Of a DNA stretch of 41,042 nucleotides, positions 22,457 through 39,836 are shown piece after piece. The notes under the pieces are model-generated. The model was given only the letters and a program-made list of their open reading frames with translations. It searched no databases and was not told where the DNA came from. This DNA comes from a virus: positions 1 to 41,042 of the IMG/VR virus record IMGVR_UViG_3300046524_000264. One strand, given 5' to 3'. Position 1 is the first letter of the stretch. Each line of letters opens with the position of its first letter. The translations under genes and the position numbers were made by a program.

Positions 22457-23251
22457 ATGTCTTCCCCCATCATCCCTTGGATGGGCGGCAAACGCCGTCT
22501 GGCCGATCGCCTTATCCCCCTTTTCCCACCGCACGAATGCTACGTCGAGGTTTTTGCCGGCGGTGCCGCGCTCTATTTCATGAAGCCTCAGCCGTCCCGG
22601 GTTGAGGTTCTTAACGACATCAACGGCGATCTGGTGACGCTGTACCGCGTCGTGCAAAACCACCTGGAAGAATTCGTGCGCCAGTTCAAATGGGCGCTCA
22701 GTTCGCGGCAGATTTTCGAGTGGCAGAAAATGACCCGCCCCGAAACCCTGACCGACATCCAGCGCGCCGCACGGTTTTTCTACCTGCAGCACCACGCGTT
22801 CGCCGGCAAGGTTTCCGGCCAGTCGTTTGGCACTGCCACAACGGCCCCGCCGATCAACCTGCTACGGATTGAGGAAAATCTTTCTGCAGCGTGGCAGCGG
22901 CTGGCCGGCACCTACGTGGAGAACCTGCCGTGGTTGGAGTGCGCCGAGCGCTACGACCGGCCGCACACCTTCCATTACATGGATCCGCCTTACTGGCAGA
23001 CGGCGGGCTACGGCGTTGATTTTCCTTTCGAGAACTACGAACGGATGGCCGACTTTATGCGCCGCTGCAAGGGCAAGGTGATGGTCAGCATTAACGACCA
23101 CCCGGACATCCGTCGTGCTTTTGAGGGTTTCCATTTTGAAACCTTGGACATTCGCTACACCACTGCCAACCAGCGCCAAGGGCAGGCAGAAGTCACCGGC
23201 GAGCTGGTGATCATGAATTGGGAGCCGGCGGCGCTGGGAGGGTTGTTCTAG
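22457..23251 (+). CDS. DNA adenine N6-methyltransferase, D12/Dam class
   Basis: This 264-aa SAM-dependent methylase of the alpha group has IPWMGGKRRLADRL near the N-terminus (substrate/SAM motif X), EVFAGGAALYF (motif I, SAM binding) and DPPY near residue 177 (motif IV, catalytic). Members methylate adenine, often in GATC, which could protect phage DNA from restriction or affect packaging and replication timing. The Shine-Dalgarno AAGGA is about 11 nt upstream. It follows the lysis genes as a lone gene with no restriction partner in sight. The target site cannot be read from sequence. Confidence 0.9.
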   Translation: MSSPIIPWMGGKRRLADRLIPLFPPHECYVEVFAGGAALYFMKPQPSRVEVLNDINGDLVTLYRVVQNHLEEFVRQFKWALSSRQIFEWQKMTRPETLTDIQRAARFFYLQHHAFAGKVSGQSFGTATTAPPINLLRIEENLSAAWQRLAGTYVENLPWLECAERYDRPHTFHYMDPPYWQTAGYGVDFPFENYERMADFMRRCKGKVMVSINDHPDIRRAFEGFHFETLDIRYTTANQRQGQAEVTGELVIMNWEPAALGGLF

Positions 23252-23351
23252 GCGAACGATCTATCTAGACCGTCGATATCCGACAGAGGGATGGGGGCGA
23301 TCGGCGGTCAGTCCGGTAGCATGCGCCCGATCGACCATCAAAAAGCCACCA

Positions 23352-23367
23352 CTGTTTATATATCCAG
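23352..23367. promoter_or_regulatory. LexA (SOS) box
   Basis: The site is CTG-TTTATATATC-CAG, an exact CTG-N10-CAG with AT-rich centre, flanked by A before and TA after, close to the LexA consensus used in E. coli and Pseudomonas. It lies 63 bp before the 60-aa gene at 23430 and overlaps the only AT-rich promoter-like DNA there (a possible -10 TAGAAT is at 23385-23390). The gene should therefore be switched on by DNA damage. Confidence 0.72.
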
Positions 23368-23372
23368 TATTG

Positions 23373-23394
23373 GGCGATTCTAGATAGAATCGCC
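23373..23394 (+). other. Perfect hairpin in leader of SOS-controlled gene
   Basis: GGCGATTCT and AGAATCGCC (9 bp) enclose AGAT. It lies between the SOS box and the 60-aa gene, covering the putative -10 and start of the transcript. It could be a second operator or a 5' mRNA stem. Confidence 0.55.
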
Positions 23395-23429
23395 GCACTT
23401 GAACGACTGTTGTAGGAAGGAACCCCCCT

Positions 23430-23612
23430 ATGTCGGAAGCACCCTCTGTAAACCCTTTGATCAAAAGTGACCAAGCGTCTACTATCGACGCGATATATCA
23501 GTACCTTGCGTGGATGTGTCTTCAGAAAGACAGTGACCCGGAGGCGCATCCGGGCGAATGGCTGCACCTGGAAACGGTGCGGCTGGCCGTTGCTTCGCTC
23601 AAAAATGTGTAA
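23430..23612 (+). CDS. SOS-controlled 60-aa protein, candidate antirepressor
   Basis: No family is recognised. The protein is small and soluble, with a helix STIDAIYQYLAWMCLQK, an acidic loop (DSDPEAHPGEW) and a second helix HLETVRLAVASLKN. AGGAAGG precedes ATG 23430. It is the only gene with a LexA box in front. Phages whose repressor cannot self-cleave often use an SOS-induced small antirepressor (Tum of 186, AntC-like proteins of N15), and the CI-like repressor here lacks the usual catalytic Lys. The antirepressor role is inferred from these facts only; other SOS-linked roles are possible. Its stop codon lies in a 16-bp palindrome. Confidence 0.6.
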   Translation: MSEAPSVNPLIKSDQASTIDAIYQYLAWMCLQKDSDPEAHPGEWLHLETVRLAVASLKNV

Positions 23613-23621
23613 ATTTACACA
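23606..23621. promoter_or_regulatory. 16-bp palindrome related to repressor half-sites
   Basis: TGTGTAAATTTACACA is a perfect palindrome containing the half-sites GTGTAA and TTACAC seen in the repressor operators, but arranged back to back rather than with a 5-bp spacer. An overlapping imperfect TTACAC-AAAAT-GTGGAC is also present. It lies between the SOS-controlled gene and the rep control region, so it could link repressor to replication control. Confidence 0.45.
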
Positions 23622-23716
23622 AAATGTGGACGAGCAAAGGCGGGCGCGTTATTCTGAGCGCCGTCAGCCCCTTGGGGGCTAAGCAGTTAGAAGAATTAGA
23701 GAATTACGGCAGGCTT

Positions 23717-23790
23717 AAAAAAGAAAACCCCCGACCTTGGCGGGACGGGGGTTTCTGGTAATCAGCACAAATTGGCTTCAAACCGGGCAG
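23717..23790 (-). ncRNA. Candidate antisense RNA controlling repA (about 70-75 nt)
   Basis: On the minus strand a promoter-like pair, TTGCTT (23819-23824) and TAGACT (23796-23801) with 17-bp spacing, would start a transcript near 23789. It would end at a strong intrinsic terminator: a hairpin at 23728-23751 followed on this strand by TTTTCTTTTTT. No minus-strand gene exists here to need such a terminator. The size and the loop that pairs with UUGGCG in the repA leader resemble the Inc/CopA antisense RNAs of IncI, IncB and IncFII plasmids. No experiment supports it, and the pseudoknot partner CGCCAA was not found downstream. Confidence 0.5.
23725..23754 (-). terminator. Intrinsic terminator (minus) and target loop in repA leader (plus)
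   Basis: AAACCCCCG and CGGGGGTTT arms enclose a 12-nt loop containing TTGGCG on the plus strand. Read from the minus strand the stem is followed by a long T-rich run, making a good terminator; on the plus strand the T-run is short, so repA transcripts could pass. Confidence 0.7.
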
Positions 23791-23848
23791 GTAGAAGTCT
23801 ATTAGCTGATCACCGCATAAGCAAGCCCTAGCCATTAGGGATGTTTGG

Positions 23849-23962
23849 ATGATCGGCGAAGCCTCATTAGAAGGCCGCCCCGGCTTTGTGCGGGGGCGTA
23901 TAGATTTGCAGCCTCTGGCCCGCGTTTTGCGCTGGGCGCCGGCTGTCGGTGGTTCGCTATGA
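23849..23962 (+). CDS. RepA leader peptide, translationally coupled
   Basis: This 37-aa frame (MIGEASLEGRPGFVRGRIDL...GGSL) has AGGGA seven bases before its ATG and ends at a TGA that overlaps the repA ATG (ATGA at 23959-23962). Upstream leader peptides whose translation opens the rep start site (tap in IncFII, repY in IncI, repB in IncB) have just this arrangement: antisense target, leader, overlapping rep start. The sequence itself has no recognised family. If real, ribosomes finishing the leader would restart at repA, and the antisense RNA would act by blocking the leader. Confidence 0.6.
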   Translation: MIGEASLEGRPGFVRGRIDLQPLARVLRWAPAVGGSL

Positions 23963-24834
23963 AGCGCGTGACCGCCACCGTCCACCACCTGCCAAGCTCC
24001 CCGGCATCGGCGGCCTACAACGGCCTGTCGGTTGTCCAGACCAAAGCCCCGCCCAAACGCCTCAAGCGTGTCGATCGCTCGGCCCAGCCGCGCCGTCCGC
24101 GCGCCTTGACCGATGCCCAGCGCCGCACGTTCCTCGGTACCGCCGCAGAACGCGTCTGTGAAGAAGCCAAAAACCGCCAGTGCAAGTGGCTGCGCGACTT
24201 CGACACCTTCCAGTCCAGCGGCTACCGCACCAGCCAGAAGCGCTGGGACTCGCTGGCCGAGCTGATCGAGCCAATCCTTGCCCGCTTGGACATTGCCACG
24301 TTGGTGCTGGGCTACCTCGACAAAGCCGGAGAATTCCGCCTCAACCGTCAGCGCGGGCTGTCAGAAGACACCTCGCTGCAGGAGTGGACGGTTTCCCGTG
24401 TGATGGGTGCGCTGGAAGCGTCCAAGATGGTCTATCGCAAGATGCGCCGGATCTGCCACAACGGCCGTTACTGGATCACCCGCGTTACGATCAACGTCCG
24501 CCCGCGCTTCTTTATCCAGTTGGGGCTGGGCTACCAGCTCGCCGAAGCGCGCACGGAAAAGAAAGCCAAGCGCAACCAACTGTTGGCCACCTTTGGCAAG
24601 CAGCGCACAGACGCGCTGATCAAGAACGCGGCCGAGCGTGAAACCCGCAAGCAGTCACACGTCACGTCCCAGGCTAAGCACCGTCGTCAGCAGGCACAGG
24701 TTCAGGCTCAGGCCGCTGAGAATGCCGAGCGCGCCCGAGCGGCCGCATGGACGGCCTTCTGCGCCGATCCAGACACGCAGGCGCTGCCGGTGCCGCAGCG
24801 AATCAAGCTATTCAACCAGCGTTACCGCCCATAA
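23959..24834 (+). CDS. repA: Plasmid-type replication initiator RepA (IncFII/IncI-like)
   Basis: This 291-aa protein has the look of IncFII/IncI-type RepA initiators: a basic N-terminal region, a winged-helix-like core with DIATLVLGYLDK, LSEDTSLQEWTVSRVMGALE (likely recognition helix) and WITRVTINVRPRFFIQLGLG, then a Lys/Arg and Gln/Ala-rich helical tail (KHRRQQAQVQAQAAENAERA). Such proteins open an origin downstream of their own gene and recruit host polymerase. ATG 23959 is chosen for its overlap with the leader-peptide stop; an in-frame TTG at 23845 would bypass that control. A gene-free stretch with origin character follows. The family call is from pattern and context, not a search. Confidence 0.72.
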   Translation: MKRVTATVHHLPSSPASAAYNGLSVVQTKAPPKRLKRVDRSAQPRRPRALTDAQRRTFLGTAAERVCEEAKNRQCKWLRDFDTFQSSGYRTSQKRWDSLAELIEPILARLDIATLVLGYLDKAGEFRLNRQRGLSEDTSLQEWTVSRVMGALEASKMVYRKMRRICHNGRYWITRVTINVRPRFFIQLGLGYQLAEARTEKKAKRNQLLATFGKQRTDALIKNAAERETRKQSHVTSQAKHRRQQAQVQAQAAENAERARAAAWTAFCADPDTQALPVPQRIKLFNQRYRP

Positions 24835-28344: not shown

Positions 28345-28767
28345 ATGTATCAGTACCCGCTAGAGCTGCACACCGAGGCCACCGGCGTGTGGTTGTCGTG
28401 CCCCGACATCCCTGAAATGAACGCCTCGGGCGACACTTTGGCCGATGCTTTCGCCGAGGCCCTTGATGGCCTGGAATCGGCGCTGTCGTTGTATGTCGAG
28501 CAGCGCCGCAAGATCCCGGCCGCGTCGCCGGCGAGCGATCCGACGTTGGTGCTGCACCTGCCGGCGCTGACCGTGGCCAAGATCATGTTGTGGAACGCCA
28601 TGTGCGACGAAGACGTCAGCCGCGCCGAGCTGGCCCGGCGTATGGGCGTGTCGCGGCAGGTGGTTGATCGACTGGTGGACTTTATCCATACCTCGAAAAT
28701 CGAGCAGGTCGAGCGCGCGCTGGGGTTGTTGGGGCGGCGCCTGTCGCTGGTGTTGGAGGCGGCGTGA
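28345..28767 (+). CDS. hicB: HicB antitoxin
   Basis: This 140-aa antitoxin has a HicB-type N-terminal domain (PLELHTEATGVWLSCPDIPEMNASG, with helix DAFAEALDGLESALSLYVEQ) and a C-terminal HTH (SRAELARRMGVSRQVVDRLV). The N-terminal part neutralises HicA, and the HTH binds the promoter at 28061. Shine-Dalgarno AGAGGTGA. Complete in length. A GTTACGCGTAAC palindrome follows the stop at 28775-28786. Confidence 0.9.
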   Translation: MYQYPLELHTEATGVWLSCPDIPEMNASGDTLADAFAEALDGLESALSLYVEQRRKIPAASPASDPTLVLHLPALTVAKIMLWNAMCDEDVSRAELARRMGVSRQVVDRLVDFIHTSKIEQVERALGLLGRRLSLVLEAA

Positions 28768-28774
28768 TCCAGTC

Positions 28775-28786
28775 GTTACGCGTAAC
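28775..28786. repeat. GTTACGCGTAAC palindrome (one of a dispersed set)
   Basis: Exact copies of GTTACGCGTAAC occur at 13435, 19955, 28775 and 36080; GTTACCCGTAAC at 29765 and 30053; GTTACGCATAAC at 40327; GTTACGAATAAC at 30339. Most lie between genes, a few in 3' coding ends. The role is unknown. Confidence 0.75.
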
Positions 28787-28806
28787 GCGCGAACAGGAAG
28801 GCCCGC

Positions 28807-29172
28807 ATGCCGTCGTTTGATCCGTTTGCCATGTTGGCCGATTGCCCAGTGTTGTCGCTGGATGAGTTGCTGAATATTCGCGATGCGGCGACGTACCTGG
28901 TGCGCGTCGAGGGCGACAGCATGCAGGGGGCGGGTATTCACAGCGGTGACCTGCTGGTGGTGAGCAAGGCGCTGGAGCCGGTACGCGGGAGCATCGTTAT
29001 TGCTGTGATCAACGGCGAGCCGATGTGCAAGCGTCTGGACTACCGCGAGGCGCAGCCGTTGTTGCGTTCGGAAAACCCGCAGTACCCGCCGCGCTACATC
29101 ATGGAAGGCGACGAATTTTCAGTTTGGGGAGTGGTGACGCACAGTGTGCGCAGCCATGGAAACTCTCTTTAA
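28807..29172 (+). CDS. UmuD'-like S24 family protein lacking cleavage region
   Basis: This 121-aa protein consists of the S24 catalytic domain alone: VEGDSMQGAGIHSGDLLVV with Ser38, and GEPMCKRLDY with Lys75, 37 residues apart as in UmuD. The N-terminal arm and the Cys/Ala-Gly cleavage site of UmuD are missing, so it resembles the already processed UmuD'. No umuC partner is present. It might pair with host UmuC to change mutagenesis, or act on LexA-like repressors. AGGAAGG precedes the ATG. It stands at the head of the small accessory gene array. Confidence 0.8.
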   Translation: MPSFDPFAMLADCPVLSLDELLNIRDAATYLVRVEGDSMQGAGIHSGDLLVVSKALEPVRGSIVIAVINGEPMCKRLDYREAQPLLRSENPQYPPRYIMEGDEFSVWGVVTHSVRSHGNSL

Positions 29173-34377: not shown

Positions 34378-34629
34378 TTAGTTGGAAAGGTCGAGTTGCA
34401 GCGTGTCCAGTTGCCGGCGCATGAGGCCGAGCAGGGCGGCCATCTGTTCCATGGTTTCGACGGTGACGTGTCCCTGATCAATGCAATACAGGGCAGCGGT
34501 TTGCATGGTGCTGGCCAGTGAATGGACTTCTTTCACTGTGGCCACGCGGCGACGTTGAATGACCATTGCGCCGCCGATCTGCGCCACGGAATTGGGGGTT
34601 TTGGGGGAAACTTCGCTACCTTGCTGCAT
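34378..34629 (-). CDS. Small regulatory-region protein (83 aa)
   Basis: This 83-aa protein starts MQQGSEVSPKTPNSVAQIGG; the rest is a helical bundle (VKEVHSLASTMQTAALYCID, VTVETMEQMAALLGLMRRQL). No family is recognised. ATG 34629 is chosen over 34662 because it lies after a ribosome site (GGAAAGGCAGG) and because the earlier ATG would fall in the promoter. A repressor-type operator (34664-34680) lies over this promoter. It is probably a lysogeny-linked small protein. Confidence 0.55.
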   Translation of the reverse strand: MQQGSEVSPKTPNSVAQIGGAMVIQRRRVATVKEVHSLASTMQTAALYCIDQGHVTVETMEQMAALLGLMRRQLDTLQLDLSN

Positions 34630-34663
34630 GGGGGAACCTGCCTTTCCTAAGTTGCGTGGCATG

Positions 34664-34680
34664 TTACACGCAAAGTGTAA
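34664..34680. promoter_or_regulatory. Repressor operator over a minus-strand promoter
   Basis: TTACAC-GCAAA-GTGTAA, a perfect inverted repeat with 5-bp spacer. On the minus strand TTGCTC and TAACAT with 18 bp between them form a promoter that this site overlaps. Confidence 0.7.
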
Positions 34681-34722: not shown

Positions 34723-35388
34723 TTACCTGTCGTGAGATATGCGGACAACGCGTCCGACAATATCCAGCTTTTGTAATTCTTCTAGGGTCATTTTGTTATC
34801 GGGATATTGCCCGCTGTCGCCGGCTCGCACGATAAAAGTGCCGTCCATTTCCGGGCATATCCAGCGGATCCAGATGTTGCCAGCAACGATAATGCCGAAC
34901 AGGTCAGCGCCGCGCACCGTGGTTTGGTCGCCATCAATCAGCAGCTCGTCACCTTCCGCAATCGTCGGTGCCATGCTGCCGTCAATTTGCTTGATATACA
35001 GCAGTTTGTTGCAGTTCATTCCCCTCGACTCGATATAACCAAGGCTGAAAGCGGTGCTGTCGGAGGCTTGGGTGAGCGGGATAGGCCCGGCTTTGGTCTG
35101 GATGGTTGGGGGATTGGCTGTAACGTAGTTGGAGGTGACTGCGCTGAGGCTGTCGGTATCGGTGTAGCCGTTGATCCACGCGGGGGTTTTCCCGAAGACC
35201 TTGGCGAGCAGTAAAACCATGTCGCTCGGCGGCATGCGTGAAGCTTGTTCCCAATTGGAAAAGCGCGAGTAGCCAAAGGGCTGACCGGAAGCCTGCGCAA
35301 GGCGCTCGGCTGTTTCTTCCAGTGTCCAGCCCTTCTCTTGGCGACACTGCCTAATCCGCTTAGCCACAATTTCCATTAATTCAGACAT
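34723..35388 (-). CDS. cI: CI-like repressor (XRE HTH + S24 domain) with Lys-to-Arg change
   Basis: This 221-aa phage repressor has an N-terminal HTH (KGWTLEETAERLAQASGQPF, RFSNWEQASRMPPSDMVLLL) and a C-terminal S24 domain. Ser138 is in IDGSMAPTI. The residue 37 further on, where the catalytic Lys should be, is Arg175 (NIWIRWI). The scissile Ala-Gly (A100-G101) is kept at normal distance. Self-cleavage is therefore expected to be weak or absent. ATG 35388 follows GAGAGA; a TTG two codons earlier is possible. It is divergent from the Cro-like gene, with operators between. Confidence 0.88.
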   Translation of the reverse strand: MSELMEIVAKRIRQCRQEKGWTLEETAERLAQASGQPFGYSRFSNWEQASRMPPSDMVLLLAKVFGKTPAWINGYTDTDSLSAVTSNYVTANPPTIQTKAGPIPLTQASDSTAFSLGYIESRGMNCNKLLYIKQIDGSMAPTIAEGDELLIDGDQTTVRGADLFGIIVAGNIWIRWICPEMDGTFIVRAGDSGQYPDNKMTLEELQKLDIVGRVVRISHDR

Positions 35389-35464
35389 GCGCAATCTCTC
35401 ATTAGGCGCCGTGAGGTCTCACGCCTTGGCAATAGATGGATATTATCCCTAACACGAAGAAATA

Positions 35465-35479
35465 TACACTTTAAGTGTA
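35465..35479. promoter_or_regulatory. Repressor operator O1 (near cI promoter)
   Basis: TACAC-TTTAA-GTGTA, an inverted repeat with 5-bp spacer, lies about 75 bp before the cI start. A GATAAT-type -10 for cI lies downstream on the minus strand, so the site would cover its -35 region (autoregulation). Confidence 0.7.
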
Positions 35480-35497
35480 GATACTGCGAAAAAAAGC

Positions 35498-35543
35498 TTG
35501 AGGAATGGGATGGAGTCGAAATAGACTTACACTAATCGTGTAA
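35498..35543 (+). promoter_or_regulatory. Early rightward promoter with operator O2
   Basis: TTGAGG (35498-35503) and TAGACT (35522-35527), 18 bp apart, form a promoter toward the Cro-like gene. The perfect operator TTACAC-TAATC-GTGTAA occupies 35527-35543 at its start point, so repressor binding would shut off early lytic genes. Confidence 0.68.
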
Positions 35544-39223: not shown

Positions 39224-39679
39224 ATGAGTAAGGGGTTATTGGCAGGGTTCGTGGCTGACGATCTGATTGATCGCGAGGCGTGGCTTGCTCAGCATTCGCC
39301 TGCGTCCCGTGGCGGTGTGACGCGTCACGACGATGAAGATTGCGGGATAAAGCCGGCGACGAAGCGCAAGCAGGAACAGCGCGAGCGGGATGTGGAGGCG
39401 GGGGTTGATGAATTGCGCGTCAGAATCGGCCCGACCGAGGCGGCGCAATTGGCTGAAGGCCTTGAATTCAGGGCCTTAGGGGGCGAGCCGTATACCGCAA
39501 CCGAATACCTGTTGACGCTGATCCGCCGTGACAACGAATTGCTCCGGCAGCAACGCGGAGTTGTTGAAAACAAAATTTGCGAACAGTGCCGAAAGCCTTT
39601 GCCACGGGGCTGCGGCGGGGTTTGGGCGGGGGAGTTGTCCTGCGCTTTGCCGCCACTCAAGCGGGCCTTGGAGTTGTGA
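39224..39679 (+). CDS. Protein after integrase, possibly regulatory (151 aa)
   Basis: This 151-aa charged protein contains KQEQRERDVEAGVDELRVRI, then PTEAAQLAEGLEFRALGGEP and YTATEYLLTLIRRD, reminiscent of small ribbon-helix-helix-type or plasmid regulator proteins. A CxxC (EQCRKPLPRGCGG) near the end may bind zinc. AGAGGA Shine-Dalgarno. It follows int by about 40 bp and probably shares its mRNA. A role as excision or late regulator is possible; not recognised. Confidence 0.55.
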   Translation: MSKGLLAGFVADDLIDREAWLAQHSPASRGGVTRHDDEDCGIKPATKRKQEQRERDVEAGVDELRVRIGPTEAAQLAEGLEFRALGGEPYTATEYLLTLIRRDNELLRQQRGVVENKICEQCRKPLPRGCGGVWAGELSCALPPLKRALEL

Positions 39680-39700
39680 CCTGCTCCAAAAAGCAAAGGG

Positions 39701-39734
39701 TTGACAGTGGTGGTGCTTTACACGTCTAGTGTTT
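39701..39734 (+). promoter_or_regulatory. Candidate late promoter overlapped by repressor-type operator
   Basis: TTGACA (39701-39706) and TCTAGT (39725-39730), 18 bp apart, with TTTACAC-GTCTA-GTGTTT (39717-39734) lying over the -10. One arm is perfect and the other is GTGT(TT). It is followed by about 100 nt of leader and a terminator before the holin, like lambda pR'. Confidence 0.55.
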
Positions 39735-39836
39735 TTTTACACGAAAAGAGTTGCAACCTTTTGCAGTTTGCCCTATCGTTTGCGTCATTGTGGTGTTGTT
39801 CCGGCCACGATACTCATCGCAAAACAGTCAATTCAG

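Follow-up and report, generated by a model that had tools for sequence, protein, structure and literature searches.

A 60-aa gene in a P2-tailed phage genome of 41,042 nucleotides (IMG/VR record IMGVR_UViG_3300046524_000264; this whole stretch is called the window below) probably encodes an antirepressor that is controlled by LexA and made during the SOS response. In its logic it would correspond to N15 AntC, Gifsy GfoA/GftA and 186 Tum, with no detectable relationship in sequence. We consider this the best explanation because the gene co-occurs with a single repressor family, is independent of the type of RepA encoded next to it, has been lost naturally from the plasmid pHN2, and has precedents: an SOS-made antirepressor is a known solution for repressors that are not cleaved, as in 186 (Tum; PMC7708051) and in Gifsy and N15 (GfoA/GftA and AntC; PMC3121763). 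Sequence comparison strongly supports the LexA box, the protein-coding nature of the gene, its co-occurrence with the repressor family and the loss of catalytic residues from the repressor; we infer the binding of the small protein to the repressor, the promoters and the order of events.

The window carries genes for the terminase gpA, a Dam methylase, ParA and a phage integrase. Related elements exist as complete plasmids in Pseudomonas, Aeromonas, Edwardsiella, Vibrio, Halomonas and Delftia, which makes a phage-plasmid the best reading of the element. The host is probably a Pseudomonas, since contigs of P. fluorescens and P. maioricensis hold close homologues of the small gene. One of the related plasmids, pHN2 (82 kb), appears to hold the same element twice.

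Linear plasmid-like phages (repA + telN) have been surveyed for alternative induction routes, and phages with non-proteolytic repressors were set aside in that survey as needing further factors (Silpe 2023, PMC10432266). The small-gene family provides a concrete candidate for such a factor across a wide range of phage-plasmids, and some of these elements carry resistance genes or transposons as well. It offers a one-gene test of their damage sensing. The arrangement of LexA box and small gene is found in related phage-plasmids of at least six genera, a wider distribution than could be seen in the preliminary description, which was made from the window alone.

The LexA box and the small gene

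The small gene and its LexA box lie between a dam gene and a repA-like gene:

22457-23251, plus strand: dam gene (dam-type methylase), left neighbour of the small gene on the same strand
23350-23369, plus strand: LexA (SOS) box CACTGTTTATATATCCAGTA, 17/20 to the consensus, the sole strong site in the window
23361-23390, plus strand: candidate promoter of the small gene as read from the sequence, with a -35-like TATCCA (23361-23366, within the LexA box), an 18-nt spacer and a -10-like TAGAAT (23385-23390)
23373-23394, plus strand: conserved palindrome GGCGATTCTA-GA-TAGAATCGCC between the LexA box and the ribosome-binding site, single copy in the window
23430-23612, plus strand: 60-aa gene, proposed LexA-controlled antirepressor, with homologues in 34 other records and under purifying selection
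23845-24834, plus strand: repA-like replication gene, start codon uncertain, homologous to 'hypothetical' proteins on Pseudomonas plasmids

The CTG-N10-CAG box that the preliminary description placed before the 60-aa gene is present as described. Its CTG (23352-23354) and CAG (23365-23367) lie within the 20-mer CACTGTTTATATATCCAGTA, which equals the canonical LexA 20-mer TACTGTATATATATACAGTA at 17 of 20 positions. Other CTG-N10-CAG sites in the window score at most 13, and among 200 randomised windows (first-order Markov copies) none reaches 16 and one reaches 15. A degenerate scan of the window (TACTGTN8ACAGTA, up to 3 mismatches) gave 4 hits against 4.66 expected, a count not above chance, with the site at 23350-23369 as the best hit; the case is therefore carried by the exact site and the comparison between relatives. 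Each of the 35 carriers has a LexA box (15-18/20) upstream of the homologous gene, its end lying 15-70 nt before the start codon. The carriers compared with the window comprised 13 viral contigs and a further 5, 3 genome contigs, 7 records of plasmids or phages, and 6 distantly related phage-plasmids, some of these records being near-duplicates. The upstream flank of the small gene diverges among the relatives and the LexA box is kept.

A hexamer of the form TAGAAT, TAAAAT or TAATAT follows the box at a nearly fixed distance in the Pseudomonas, Aeromonas, Edwardsiella and Delftia relatives, and in the Pseudomonas, Aeromonas and Delftia types this spacing would put the -35 element inside the LexA box. 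The Vibrio types L060, L063 and L064 have a TTGxxx-17-TCTAAT pair that runs up to the box. LexA would thus lie over the promoter in both arrangements, and in most carriers the position of the box fits promoter overlap. These promoters were placed by eye, and a strict-threshold promoter scan of the window reported none, the candidates for the small gene and for repA included. That the box is conserved in six genera and lies over plausible promoters strongly supports LexA control of the small gene, and with it the SOS control that had been proposed from the window alone.

In 18 Pseudomonas-type relatives, the palindrome that follows the LexA box keeps 94% of cells paired, with two pairs changed on both sides; it is a candidate operator or 5' stem-loop. 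We rejected it as a CI operator, there being no second copy in the window.

The ORF at 23430-23612 is preceded by a Shine-Dalgarno-like AGGAAGGA at 23414-23421. Its homologues in 34 other phage-plasmid records, from Pseudomonas, Aeromonas, Edwardsiella, Vibrio, Halomonas and Delftia, range from 16 to 93% identity. In 16 close homologues the mean pN/pS is 0.38 and variation is greatest at the third position of codons; the ORF is therefore a real protein gene. Four residues (Asn8, Leu10, Thr18 and Gly42) are invariant across 28 members, and an AlphaFold2 model predicts a helical hairpin (helices 15-35 and 41-57; mean pLDDT 89). Searches of Pfam, PHROGs and NCBIfam with 28 members gave no significant match, nor did comparison of the small protein with PDB sequences, PDB folds and BFVD; a match to the TraM antiactivator fold (2q0o, E 8) was set aside as expected of any helical hairpin. 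We think it likely that the small proteins are a family of their own, new and so far unannotated, among the LexA-controlled antirepressors, which are a known kind.

The repressor of the carrier phages

The repressor gene lies about 11 kb from the small gene, which places the latter outside the immunity region:

34723-35394, minus strand: CI-like repressor with an HTH and an S24-type C-domain (Pfam HTH_3, weak Peptidase_S24), catalytic Lys replaced by Arg

Every small-gene carrier record that is long enough encodes a repressor of this one S24-type family. It was found in 10 of the 13 viral contigs with the small gene, the other three being fragments of less than 10 kb, in 8/8 further small-gene genomes, and in complete plasmids and phages. 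The predicted structure of the repressor matches those of the 186-lambda hybrid, 186, lambda and LexA repressors. The position of the catalytic Lys was set by alignment with an intact S24 protein of the window (28807-29172) and with the cI of VP882, which is autoproteolytic (Silpe 2023, PMC10432266). It is occupied by Arg in 25/25 aligned repressor relatives, and the catalytic Ser is Ala in four of them (L059, L062, L063 and L064). The repressor profile aligns to N15 CB (hhalign 96.5%, E 8e-10), a non-proteolytic repressor (Silpe 2023, PMC10432266).

These substitutions and the homology to N15 CB support, at the level of sequence, a repressor without self-cleavage, a property that the preliminary description had raised as a possibility. 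The exchange of Lys for Arg may leave weak residual cleavage, and the linker of the window's repressor happens to contain an Ala-Gly dipeptide. A phage whose repressor lacks the catalytic Lys needs another damage-sensing route. VP882, the one genome used as a contrast, has a cI that keeps Ser and Lys and shows no LexA box by the same rule.

Two minor observations concern the same proteins. The repressor genes of Vibrio phage VPHZ6 (L027 25649-26167) and of plasmid pVPGX2 (L028 32160-32594) look truncated or frameshifted. At 28345-29172 the window also encodes a HicB-like HTH protein and, after it, an S24 (UmuD-like) protein that stands alone and has kept both Ser and Lys; the two are found together in pHN2 as well.

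Candidate operators on the repA side and the probable target of the small protein

Candidate repressor operators and other elements of repA control were located as follows:

23615-23631, plus strand: candidate repressor operator TTACACAAAATGTGGAC, overlapping the repA-side -35, conserved in 19 Pseudomonas-type loci
23627-23655, plus strand: candidate repA promoter, TGGACG (23627-23632), 17-nt spacer, TATTCT (23650-23655), a highly conserved block in relatives
23717-23840, minus strand: putative antisense RNA against the repA leader, with a T-run terminator at its end (minus-strand terminator-like site)
34664-34680, plus strand: perfect candidate operator TTACACGCAAAGTGTAA, before ORF 34378-34662 (minus strand)
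35464-35480, plus strand: candidate repressor operator ATACACTTTAAGTGTAG, cI-cro intergenic
35527-35543, plus strand: candidate repressor operator TTACACTAATCGTGTAA, cI-cro intergenic

A further operator-like site lies outside the switch region, at 39718-39734.

The motif TTACAC-N5-GTGTAA is found twice in the cI-cro interval and a third time, as TTACACAAAATGTGGAC, on the repA side, directly after the stop codon of the small gene; 10/12 arm positions of this copy are identical to those of the cI-cro site TTACACTAATCGTGTAA. The motif differs among relatives, the cI-cro and repA-side copies changing together: TACCAC-N5-GTGG in K303, ATCACAGATAGTGGAAA in a Delftia plasmid, TTTCCGC-N5-GTGGT in two Vibrio plasmids and AACAC-N5-GTGTT in P. 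lundensis. In the test for a repA-side operator, palindromic cI-cro 17-mers served as queries and random windows from the genome concerned as the control; this gave a Fisher's combined p of 4e-10 over 11 phages, which the test treats as independent and which are partly related. When all cI-cro 17-mers were used the result was weak for single phages, and the palindromic restriction sharpened it. L026 and L061 failed the palindromic test; the P. aeruginosa element L026 has no clear operator on the repA side, and L061 shares an exact 17-mer between cI-cro and the repA side in the version with all 17-mers. A repA-side operator is thus supported statistically, and the repressor probably silences repA directly through this predicted operator on the repA promoter. 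If the operator is real, plasmid replication and the lytic programme are under the same repressor.

The preliminary description had also noted that the small gene borders the repA control region. A promoter/operator-like block and the terminator of the putative antisense RNA do come after the gene, and the probable repressor operator on the repA promoter gives this neighbourhood a relevance beyond what had been seen there. The putative antisense RNA has a very stable fold (z = -4.5) and an Rfam match to the Pseudomonas rnk leader that stays below threshold (E 0.005), and is probably a copy-number control. In NZ_OR552796, the gene in the position of the repA-like gene is annotated 'plasmid replication protein repA'.

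Such surroundings could suggest that the small protein is an SOS-induced regulator of the replicon, acting on RepA, its mRNA or the antisense RNA and raising copy number. In every annotated relative the small gene immediately precedes repA, the repA leader has antisense-RNA-like features, and the divergence of the small protein correlates positively with that of the adjacent RepA (r 0.39). This correlation is, however, below that with the DNA-binding domain of the repressor about 11 kb away (r 0.55, Mantel p 0.0002; 0.54 when controlling for RepA), which is modest evidence that the repressor, and not RepA, is the target. The coupling between small protein and repressor is loose, L014 and L017 going the other way with repressors 99% identical to the window's and small proteins only 80-85% identical. 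RepA types have also been exchanged with the small gene retained: in related phages, small proteins 62-93% identical to the window's stand beside RepA proteins of just 24-51% identity (L013 has a RepA at 51% and a small protein at 93%, L054 a RepA at 24%). RepA relatives on five ordinary plasmids have no small-gene homologue upstream. Finally, pHN2 is without the LexA box and an intact small gene, and keeps the repressor, repA and the plasmid state; its decayed small-gene remnant (L062 31311-31360) amounts to a natural knock-out. The RepA swaps, the ordinary plasmids and the loss in pHN2 therefore point away from RepA as the target, and the predicted repressor operator on the repA promoter would make the position of the small gene sensible without it. 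We regard regulation of the replicon by the small protein as unlikely.

Co-orientation with repA across a gap of about 0.2 kb would also fit an SOS promoter that is only a second promoter for repA, with the ORF as an incidental leader peptide. The purifying selection on the ORF (pN/pS 0.38), the conservation of the protein sequence as far as Delftia and Halomonas, and the presence of a separate conserved repA promoter-like block and operator, with hairpins in between, make this very unlikely. Small SOS-controlled phage proteins directed at the host are known in general, and a protein of this sort that leaves the repressor untouched, such as a cell-division or growth inhibitor, is compatible with the sequence. 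We nonetheless find it quite unlikely in view of the co-occurrence, in six genera, with one non-cleavable repressor family that is otherwise without evident SOS input, and of pHN2, in which the repressor is intact and only the input from the small gene is lost. Modulators of RecA or LexA are often small and LexA-controlled too, and a DinI-like or GIL01 gp7-like protein (GIL01 gp7: PMC4551915) might tune the SOS response itself. This reading seems to us the least likely of all: none of the 28 scanned family members has a DinI Pfam match, and the consistent presence of a non-cleavable repressor is left unexplained.

The proposed switch and known antirepressors

Under the antirepressor reading, the lysogen would persist as a plasmid in which host LexA, bound to the box at 23350-23369, keeps the small gene off, and the non-cleavable repressor occupies the TTACAC-N5-GTGTAA operators at cI-cro and, before repA, at 23615-23631. 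DNA damage would lead to the destruction of LexA and to synthesis of the small helical-hairpin protein, which would bind the repressor and release it from DNA, opening the early lytic operon and repA together. The full scheme joins an unrecognised antirepressor family in at least six genera, a repressor acting on the repA promoter, a single SOS-made protein that frees both the lytic genes and the replicon, and, in Vibrio, a divergent HTH gene as a second, SOS-independent input; taken as a whole we offer it tentatively.

The small protein has no detectable homology to the known antirepressors tested. The closest parallel in organisation is N15, for which AntC is given as the LexA-controlled antirepressor of a linear plasmid-prophage (Mardanov and Ravin 2007, as cited in PMC3121763). 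Both elements are plasmid prophages with homologous repressors, non-proteolytic in N15 (CB) and predicted to be so in the window, and both have a LexA box before a small ORF. In the N15 record (L083) the box (39562-39581) lies 22 nt before an unannotated 75-aa ORF (39604-39831), which is presumably antC; gp50 and gp51 were rejected as AntC, as no LexA box stands directly before either. The N15 repressor operators flank CB, and one of them is on the replication-gene side, as predicted for the window. The presumed antC is located in the early region, whereas the small gene of the window is at the junction of the late genes and repA, and the two proteins are not alignable (hhalign probability 0.1%). 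It seems that homologous repressors came to be paired with different SOS-controlled small proteins, or with ones that have diverged beyond recognition.

The Gifsy antirepressors GfoA, GftA and GfhA resemble the window's protein in being small, LexA-controlled, encoded outside the immunity region and paired with an uncleaved repressor (PMC3121763). The small protein is set apart from the Gifsy proteins by the lack of a dinI gene in between and by its having no Pfam, PHROGs or NCBIfam match. Tum of 186 is a LexA-regulated anti-CI factor in a P2-type phage (PMC7708051), and the modelled repressor of the window matches 186 CI structures. Tum, however, has 146 aa with a DinI-like half (PMC3121763), whereas the window's protein has 60 aa, no such half and no DinI Pfam match. 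The likeness to Tum suggested in the preliminary description accordingly stands for the logic and falls for the sequence, in which we detected no relationship.

A last comparison is with the TF-smORF lysis modules of linear plasmid-like phages, namely vqmA/qtip of VP882 and those of phages 72 and 63 (PMC10432266). Their small proteins also lack homologues, lie near replication or partition genes of phage-plasmids, and inactivate cI (PMC10432266). Unlike the predicted system of the window, with its SOS box and non-cleavable repressor, these modules work independently of SOS, are under a divergent transcription factor and belong to phages whose cI is autoproteolytic. The window has no divergent transcription factor beside the small gene, the left neighbour being the same-strand dam-type methylase gene, and the catalytic Lys of its repressor is replaced. 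In the Vibrio members L008/L009 (5448-5846, 5989-6198), the LexA box separates the small gene from a divergently oriented HTH gene, a possible dual input that would resemble the SOS-independent TF-smORF modules.
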